Below are positions 5,271 to 6,280 of a stretch of 6,280 nt of DNA, piece by piece. The notes beneath the pieces were generated by a model. The model had not been told where the DNA came from. It did no database searches and was given only the letters and a program-made list of their open reading frames with translations. The translations under genes and the position numbers were made by a program. Numbering within the stretch: the first letter of the stretch is position 1; each line of letters starts with the position of its first letter. Source of the DNA: Thermoleophilia bacterium (GTDB lineage: Bacteria; Actinomycetota; Thermoleophilia; Gaiellales; SKUG01); contig JAOPYU010000276.1 of the NCBI GenBank assembly GCA_025964455.1, forward strand, positions 1 to 6,280, in the 5' to 3' direction.

Positions 5271-5280
5271 GGGGAGCCCA

Positions 5281-5316
5281 AGGGGGATCGGCGCGCCACT
5301 AGGGGGAGGGCGCGCC
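5281..5316. repeat. Tandem AGGGGGA-GGCGCGCC repeat forming a hairpin
   Basis: Two near-copies lie next to each other: AGGGGGA TC GGCGCGCC (5281-5297) and AGGGGGA G GGCGCGCC (5301-5316), with a period of 19-20 bases. GGCGCGCC is itself a palindrome, so the copies at 5290-5297 and 5309-5316 can also pair as an 8-base GC stem around an 11-base loop. The element lies 11 to 46 bases upstream of the start of the minus-strand gene at 5270, inside its probable leader. It could be a protein-binding site, a leader hairpin or simply a local duplication. The repeat is plain; its role is unknown. Confidence 0.5.
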
Positions 5317-5354
5317 TGCTAACTCCACGATGGGCCCGAATGCCCACGCCGTCA

Positions 5355-5369: not shown

Positions 5370-5954
5370 TCAGCGGGTGGGGCCGGATGCAGCGGCGCCG
5401 CGTGGCACCGGGGCATCCGTGGCTGCCGCGGCGCGTGCGCGTTCGCGCGCGCGATCCAGGTCTTCCTGGATCGGCTTGGTGAGCCAGTCGGCGACCAGGT
5501 TGGAGACGATCGCCACCGCCGGCGCCATCACGATGCCCTTGGAGGCGCCCATGCCGGCGCTGCGCAGTCGCGAGGCGCGAATGCCGTCGACCGATCGCGC
5601 CGGGATGAGCCCACCCACGAGCGCGCCCCACGTGCCACCGAGTGCGGAGCCGACCAGGAGGCTCGGCACGATGCCGGGGTCCTCATCGTGCGACACCAGG
5701 CTCAGCACGGCCGGGGTCGTGGCGGCGACCATCGGCACGCCGACCTTGAACAGCAGTCCTGCACCCAGCTTGGCCGGCATCGCATGCGCGAACTCCTTGG
5801 CCTTCTGGATGAACTCGACGCGGCGCGCGCTCGGAAGCCCGAGCGGCAGCTCCAGCTGCACGTCGTGTGGCGTACCGCGCAGTCGTTCGACCAGCGCGCG
5901 CACACCGTGATTGTTCGGCCCCTCGACCATGACCCGTCCCGGTATCGACAACAT
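5370..5954 (-). CDS. Small unknown membrane protein with three hydrophobic segments
   Basis: This 194-residue protein belongs to no family I recognise. A soluble N-terminal part of about 60 residues includes a charged helix (VEFIQKAKEFAHAMPAK, 46-62). Three Gly/Ala-rich hydrophobic segments follow at about 63-88, 96-118 and 138-157. The middle one (LLVGSALGGTWGALVGG) has small-residue spacing typical of tightly packed or glycine-zipper helices. The C-terminus is a charged Arg/Ala helix (about 160-178) and a Pro/Ala tail, probably cytoplasmic. The ATG at 5954 has GGGG directly against it, which is too close for a normal Shine-Dalgarno sequence. The in-frame ATG at 5930 has GGGACGGG a few bases upstream and may be the true start, giving 186 residues. 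An in-frame TAG just upstream rules out a longer gene. Two large dyad elements lie upstream and may control it. Opposite-strand frames here are Arg-rich and look like shadows. Confidence 0.68.
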   Translation of the reverse strand: MLSIPGRVMVEGPNNHGVRALVERLRGTPHDVQLELPLGLPSARRVEFIQKAKEFAHAMPAKLGAGLLFKVGVPMVAATTPAVLSLVSHDEDPGIVPSLLVGSALGGTWGALVGGLIPARSVDGIRASRLRSAGMGASKGIVMAPAVAIVSNLVADWLTKPIQEDLDRARERARAAAATDAPVPRGAAASGPTR

Positions 5955-6065
5955 CCCCTACCGGTCCATCGGTCCCGGCGCCCTCCCCGTTTCGCCGCTC
6001 CCTCCACGACAGCCGAACCCGGATCGCAGGGTGCGCGAGCGCCGCACCCACGCGCGTCGACGCCG

Positions 6066-6106
6066 ACTGTTCAGAATCGATAACCCCTCGATCGTTTCTG
6101 TACAGG
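6066..6106. repeat. Dyad repeat element, copy 1
   Basis: This 41-base element has arms at 6067-6081 (CTGTTCAGAATCGAT) and 6091-6105 (ATCGTTTCTGTACAG) around a 9-base loop, AACCCCTCG. The arms pair at 13 of 15 positions, with T opposite T at 6071/6101 and 6077/6095. The right end, CTGTACAG, is a perfect palindrome on its own. The element is more AT-rich than its surroundings. It lies in the gap between two minus-strand genes, about 110 bases upstream of the 5954 start, so it could be an operator, a leader or terminator hairpin, or a member of a dispersed repeat family. Confidence 0.72.
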
Positions 6107-6136
6107 TGATGGGGAGCGCAGGGGTGTCCATCCACC
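6105..6136. repeat. Bulged inverted repeat between the two dyads
   Basis: GGTGATGG (6105-6112) can pair with CCAT-C-CACC (6128-6136), leaving one bulged C and a 15-base loop. It fills most of the spacer between the two dyad copies, giving three consecutive potential hairpins. An 8-base stem with a bulge can arise by chance in GC-rich sequence, so support is modest. Confidence 0.25.
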
Positions 6137-6137
6137 A

Positions 6138-6178
6138 ACTGTGCAGAACCGATAACCCCTCGATCGCTTCTGTACAGG
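6138..6178. repeat. Dyad repeat element, copy 2
   Basis: This second copy of the 41-base element lies exactly 72 bases after copy 1 and matches it at 38 of 41 positions. Its arms are 6139-6153 (CTGTGCAGAACCGAT) and 6163-6177 (ATCGCTTCTGTACAG), with the identical loop AACCCCTCG. Unpaired positions are 6143/6173 (G opposite T) and 6149/6167 (C opposite C). The three substitutions relative to copy 1 (at 6143, 6149 and 6167) all fall at these positions. It begins 20 bases beyond the stop of the minus-strand gene at the window edge, so it could also act as that gene's terminator, although no T-tract follows. Confidence 0.72.
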
Positions 6179-6197
6179 CGCGCAGGCTGGCGCTGCG

Positions 6198-6280
6198 TCA
6201 GCCCCCGCCGAAGGCCGAGACGGGCAGCTCGATCACACGGTCGGTAGCGTCGGGATAGCGCACGGTCGCCTCGAGCTCGT
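6198..6280 (-). CDS. C-terminal end of an unidentified minus-strand gene (partial)
   Basis: Reading the minus strand from the window edge, an open frame runs 26 codons to a TGA at 6198-6200 and ends RYPDATDRVIELPVSAFGGG. Third positions are mostly G or C, and the peptide has a reasonable composition (a beta-strand-like VRYPDATDRVIELPV, then a Gly tail), unlike the Arg-rich frames on the other strand. The fragment is too short to assign to a family. It fits the minus-strand orientation of the two genes that follow it. It could be a chance open frame. Confidence 0.45.
   Translation of the reverse strand, partial: ELEATVRYPDATDRVIELPVSAFGGG

Follow-up and report, generated by a model that had tools for sequence, protein, structure and literature searches.

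Two near-identical inverted repeats (dyads) lie head-to-tail in one intergenic region of the Thermoleophilia DNA analyzed here (a stretch of 6,280 nucleotides, the window), and all of the bases that differ between them occupy positions at which the arms do not pair. We tentatively read the dyads as lineage-specific intergenic hairpin repeats that work like a REP/BIME unit and would be recognized as a folded single strand, a reading that we hold to be possible and somewhat short of probable. Its main rival is a pair of operators, from which three differences between two copies can hardly separate it. The coordinates are collected in Table 1.

Table 1. Features in and around the intergenic region that carries the dyads (window positions; dyad columns numbered 1–39).
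Feature	Position	Strand	Description
P0001 gene	5370..5930	minus	186 aa; hydrophobic, membrane-like by eye
Intergenic region with both dyads	5931..6197		267 nt
Dyad copy 1	6067..6105		CTGTTCAGAATCGATAACCCCTCGATCGTTTCTGTACAG; arms 6067-6081 and 6091-6105; centre 6082-6090 (AACCCCTCG); unpaired columns 5/35 (T,T) and 11/29 (T,T)
Spacer between dyads	6106..6138		33 nt; unrelated to flanks
Dyad copy 2	6139..6177		CTGTGCAGAACCGATAACCCCTCGATCGCTTCTGTACAG; arms 6139-6153 and 6163-6177; centre 6154-6162 (identical); columns 5/35 (G,T) and 11/29 (C,C)
Gene X, 3' end (cut by the contig end)	6198..6280	minus	stop codon 6200-6198

The dyad proper is 39 nt in each copy (two 15-nt arms and the 9-nt centre AACCCCTCG), not the 41 nt of the original prediction; with one flanking base added per side, the copies share 38/41 bases, and the dyads themselves, repeated with a period of 72, are identical at 36/39 columns within an aligned common block of 44 nt. 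In both copies 13 of the 15 arm columns are Watson-Crick paired, leaving columns 5, 11, 29, and 35 without pairing, and the half-site CTGTnCAGAAnCGAT is exact in all four arms. The centre is asymmetric and unchanged on the same strand, that is, the pair is head-to-tail. Between the copies, columns 5, 11, and 29 differ (three of three differences among the four unpaired arm columns). The partner columns 11/29 change together, T opposite T becoming C opposite C; at 5/35, T opposite T in copy 1 becomes G opposite T in copy 2, which would make a G-U pair in RNA of the plus strand. The near-identity, the arms with their identical loop and 13/15 pairing, the placing of the three substitutions, and the change on both sides of one mismatch had all been predicted, and we find each of them in the sequence. 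The G+C contents of the dyads (46% and 54%) compare with 66% over the whole intergenic region.

For three differences placed at random over the 39 columns, the probability that each hits one of the 4 unpaired arm columns is 4.4e-4, a value that is post hoc; given the 13 columns that are unpaired when the loop is included, the probability that the loop is spared is 0.014. Mutation bias at single-stranded bases explains this less well, since the loop is just as unpaired and carries no change. The original prediction had taken this pattern as selection on the dyad; selection is suggested but, with three differences between two copies counted post hoc, not demonstrated. It had also judged that the pair is not a fresh duplication, and for a 72-nt tandem this holds: similarity between the copies ends near the dyad edges, with 11/33 identical positions in the left flank and 10/33 in the spacer.

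A single dyad of such strength is not rare in sequence of this make-up. In 60 simulations with the dinucleotide make-up of the window, dyads this strong (13/15 pairs, loop 3–30) occurred at a mean of 0.87 sites per simulated sequence (registers counted), and 17/60 sequences contained at least two, the number in the window. The non-chance feature is the repetition of the same sequence, which stands out because no other 39-nt ungapped alignment to either copy, over the entire window and both strands, exceeds 21/39. Folded as RNA, the plus strand gives z-scores of −2.10 for copy 1 and −5.25 for copy 2 (8/200 and 0/200 shuffles equally good), and the minus strand −1.34 and −1.82 (21/200 and 13/200).

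The dyads lie between two genes on the minus strand. Copy 2 ends 20 nt from the stop codon of gene X, the reading frame of which has G or C at 85% of its third codon positions (27 codons); on the other side, 136 nt separate the near edge of copy 1 from the P0001 start codon, upstream of which it lies. We set this start at 5930, where the database protein P0001 begins; MV or MI begins 10 of 14 aligned members of the family. The family (51 listed proteins, P0001 included) obtained no Pfam name at E ≤ 0.001 in a scan that used a longer start, and the predicted structure of P0001 is too poor for a structural search (mean pLDDT 59.4, pTM 0.27). The three organism-named relatives (P0014, P0021, and P0031) are all Thermoleophilia MAG proteins, an indication of that class. 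Among the homologues listed, which come from scoring the 7997 candidates with the most shared words, the nearest is 80% identical to P0001 and the other 49 are 42–55% identical; by this comparison the genus thus looks thinly sampled. A search of viral contigs for relatives of P0001 gave 64 candidate stretches, of which none was confirmed, and plasmids yielded no relative.

Elsewhere in the window, the plus strand encodes folB, a DUF2469 gene, an unnamed ORF, and a HAMP-GAF-GGDEF gene, and the minus strand encodes an unnamed 235-aa ORF in addition to the P0001 gene and the end of gene X. Two further sites were noticed: by eye, a spaced dyad, ACCACCTG / CAGGTGGT (1273-1280 and 1308-1315), in the gap preceding the ORF that is listed from 1324; and a strongly folding stretch at 5276-5335 (−30.7 kcal/mol, a raw energy with no shuffle control), between the P0001 gene and the 235-aa ORF, that has GGCGCGCC on both sides. 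No tRNA was found in the window, and the five weak Rfam 15 matches in it (E up to 5) do not include one over the dyads. The original prediction had recognized no known operator in the motif, and as far as tested this stands, with no Rfam match and with four centre strings absent from 5.39 million full-text papers. One 10-mer is shared with the AtoC paper (PMC3118216).

Further copies were sought within the window and by pattern scans of GTDB species representatives and viral contigs, and no third copy was found. In the GTDB representatives, one full arm plus the inner part of the second arm gave a single match, in a Bacillus coding stretch (MreB by eye) in which the second outer arm is absent; in viral contigs, the same pattern gave none, as did the centre plus inner arms. 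The inner arms gave eight viral matches, none of them with the outer arms and two with the same surrounding sequence, and the outer arms gave another eight, none with inner CGAT/ATCG arms. The central 17-mer has two viral matches, both with 7/15 pairing and inside long ORFs that, by eye, would encode a phage portal protein. A distant BLAST of 5956-6280 returned 22 plasmid and 7 phage records, and no listed alignment (20 of the 22 for plasmids) spans a whole dyad. The lack of a third copy is weak evidence, because exact patterns miss diverged copies and the organism's own genome and sister genomes lay outside the search.

The reading as REP-like hairpin repeats would have the folded strand formed as single-stranded DNA, at replication or excision, or as RNA in the 3' UTR of gene X; the features recognized would be the stem together with the mismatches and the asymmetric loop, the latter two being fixed, and the bases in the mismatch columns would be free to vary provided that they do not join the stem. 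We infer the folded-strand recognition, the genome-wide dispersal, and any binding protein. In favor of this reading, identity is bounded near the dyad edges and the differences occur only at unpaired arm columns. The 9-nt centre is asymmetric and unchanged, a property for which a symmetric dimer bound to duplex DNA would have no need; because of this centre, and because the mismatch columns change without Watson-Crick pairing, recognition of a folded strand fits better than such a dimer. Identity at 36/39 columns also exceeds the sequence that one operator usually needs. The site directly behind the gene X stop codon, the plus-strand folds that beat shuffles, and the G+C content below that of the intergenic region point the same way. 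Two papers describe such repeats downstream from coding regions (PMC3733652) and, in Escherichia coli REPs, conserved stem mismatches that transposase recognition requires (PMC8266576).

Against the REP-like reading, GTAG and its complement are absent from both strands of 6031-6215, and the CGTC tag is not found at the dyad ends: CGTC occurs at 6055 and 6196 and GACG at 6059-6062, of which the closest lies 4 nt beyond the edge of copy 1 and has no counterpart at copy 2. No transposase is encoded by the six ORFs scanned (a scan that excluded gene X and the first 329 bases), the minus-strand folds are just slightly better than shuffles, and the possible G-U at 5/35 in the plus-strand RNA of copy 2 means that the mismatch is not strictly kept. 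The lack of a third copy and the ordinary strength of the dyads count against it as well. A bolder proposal, which we consider unlikely, is that the dyads represent a new Thermoleophilia class of palindromic repeats that has neither the GTAG nor the CGTC tag, that is defined by a fixed asymmetric loop and obligately unpaired stem positions, and whose folded DNA or RNA would be recognized by a novel enzyme. Should other copies vary just at the four unpaired columns, they would be a clear natural case of mismatches as a recognition mark; judging from a limited literature search, little may be in print about palindromic repeats of Thermoleophilia.

As a pair of operators, a rather doubtful explanation in our estimate, each 39-bp dyad would be bound as a duplex by a dimeric or two-dimer regulator that reads the half-site and controls the gene starting at 5930, and the free columns would be degenerate operator positions. 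The exact half-site in four of four arms is what such a regulator might be expected to read, and CTGTnCAGAAnCGAT would then be a concrete binding motif for a putative regulator. The dyads lie in the upstream region of that gene at a centre-to-centre distance of 72 bp, or 6.86 turns. CTGTnCAG sub-palindromes, of which the plus strand of the window has just these four, are at 0, 2.95, 6.86, and 9.81 turns (10.5 bp per turn), that is, near one face of the helix. However, the 9-bp centre between the half-sites is both identical and asymmetric, 136 nt separate the nearer dyad from the start codon, and no sigma-70-like promoter was found in 5900-6280; the GTDB scan with a full arm and part of the other gave the Bacillus coding match only, by an exact pattern that misses diverged sites. 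The hairpins could instead serve gene X, terminating or stabilizing its transcript as tandem RNA hairpins that lack a U-tract. The first would begin close behind the stop codon, and its stem and loop sizes are near those of the mapped termination units in PMC8355165 (stem 4–14, loop 5–10), which reports a poly-A/U pattern as not essential and places 98% of correctly identified termination sites within 80 bases of the stop codon. In that paper, however, clustered hairpins are <15 nt apart, and here they are 33 nt apart; the rule for a T-tailed terminator (a G+C-rich stem followed by a T run) gives no site in 5900-6280, the minus strand, which is the one transcribed from gene X, has the weaker fold z-scores, and termination needs structure but not identical stem and loop sequence. 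We judge this role improbable. Neutral duplication, in which a stretch of ~44 nt was copied recently and acquired three substitutions that fell in unpaired columns by chance, strikes us as quite improbable: the differences are just three and were counted post hoc, dyads of this strength are not rare (17/60), and the three differing columns share one codon phase (2 mod 3; 0.031), but the placing in unpaired columns has the low probability given above, and a 72-nt tandem would have left similarity in the spacer and flank, which is absent. Read in the plus-strand frame with this phase at the third codon position, none of the three changes alters an amino acid. A protein-database search with short peptides taken from five of the dyads' six reading frames gave three candidates, none at E ≤ 10. 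Coding was rejected on the in-frame TAA in each copy (by eye).

The layout of arm, centre, and arm, with an identical asymmetric centre and few arm differences, would also suit two directly repeated site-specific recombination sites with inverted arms around an asymmetric overlap (Cre/loxP-like, Xer-like, or res-like), between which recombination would excise the 33-nt spacer and one site. We consider this explanation improbable. In its favor, a serine resolvase gene (Pfam Resolvase) at a viral locus (L015) is closely preceded by a dyad of 42 nt with the same outer arms, CTGTACAGAA/TTCTGTACAG. Among the 23 viral-contig loci of this family of small resolvases (L018-L040; L018 is the L015 record again), 20 have an inverted repeat of at least 10/12 pairs just upstream, most of them similar in layout (that of L022 in another register); each is a single copy, 10–92 nt ahead of the point at which the protein match starts. 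This count has no shuffled control and 10/12 repeats also occur elsewhere (L041 and L043), so the shared core sequence (CAACGAACGT or CAACCAACGT type by pattern in 15/23 loci) is the better sign. The repeat, in our own reading roughly TGTACAnAnCTGC-GCAACGAACGTTAG-GCAGnTnTGTACA, may be the resolvase's own site. The dyads are like these repeats in their outer TGTnCA-like arms, conserved asymmetric centre, and variable mid-arm columns; they are unlike them in that the repeats of L015/L018 have an even length and that the family's repeats have a different centre and a single copy. The family centre (CAACGAACGTT type, 15/23 loci by pattern) is absent from our dyads; the likeness is one of layout and not of membership. 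TGTnCAGAA occurs upstream in 1/23 loci, namely L018, itself picked by the search pattern, and TGTnCAGA in none of the seven plasmid relatives fetched (from 30 listed of at least 5000 records). A serine-recombinase crossover site is a dyad of even length with a 2-bp centre, but our dyads have an odd length (39) and a 9-nt centre, and no recombinase is encoded by the six ORFs scanned. A strong dyad close upstream of the recombinase gene was seen in two of the seven plasmid relatives (L046 and L047): in Hymenobacter, one of 12/12 pairs with a loop of 14, and in Magnetospirillum, a long one centred on TAACGGACGTTA.

A CRISPR array was also considered and rejected: there are only two repeats, the adjoining 72-nt slots match at best 10/39 and 15/39, and no cas family is found among the six proteins scanned.

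Returning to the REP-like reading, the dyads resemble REPs as intergenic imperfect palindromes of ~40 nt that have stem mismatches, are paired, and lie directly behind a stop codon. In PMC3733652 and PMC8266576, GTAG REP families have loops of 2–20 and stems of 5–13 and CGTC families have stems of 8–9, and REP dimers are mostly head-to-head or tail-to-tail (PMC3733652); the main text of PMC3733652 has no occurrence of ‘actinobacter’. The dyad loop of 9 is within the GTAG range, but the dyads are unlike REPs in having neither tag, a head-to-tail arrangement, a stem of 15 columns, and no transposase among the six ORFs scanned. With neither tag present and the two units running in the same direction, we do not file the element as a REP.

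REPINs are two palindromic units that are able to fold into one long hairpin, and here too two such units, ~115 nt end to end, can do so (−46.4 kcal/mol on the plus strand and −40.4 on the minus). As a special structure this hairpin was rejected: it follows from two copies of a palindrome, since shuffled spacers fold equally well (145/500 on the plus strand and 202/500 on the minus), and the self-complementarity of the spacer is weak and not significant (463/5000 shuffled spacers score equally well). The dyads differ from REPINs in that the units are direct, not inverted, and that the long hairpin gains nothing significant from the spacer. CIRCE-type operators have 9-bp arms inverted around a 9-bp spacer; our dyads have arms of 15 and an unrelated sequence, and share with these operators the inverted arms and the 9-bp spacing.
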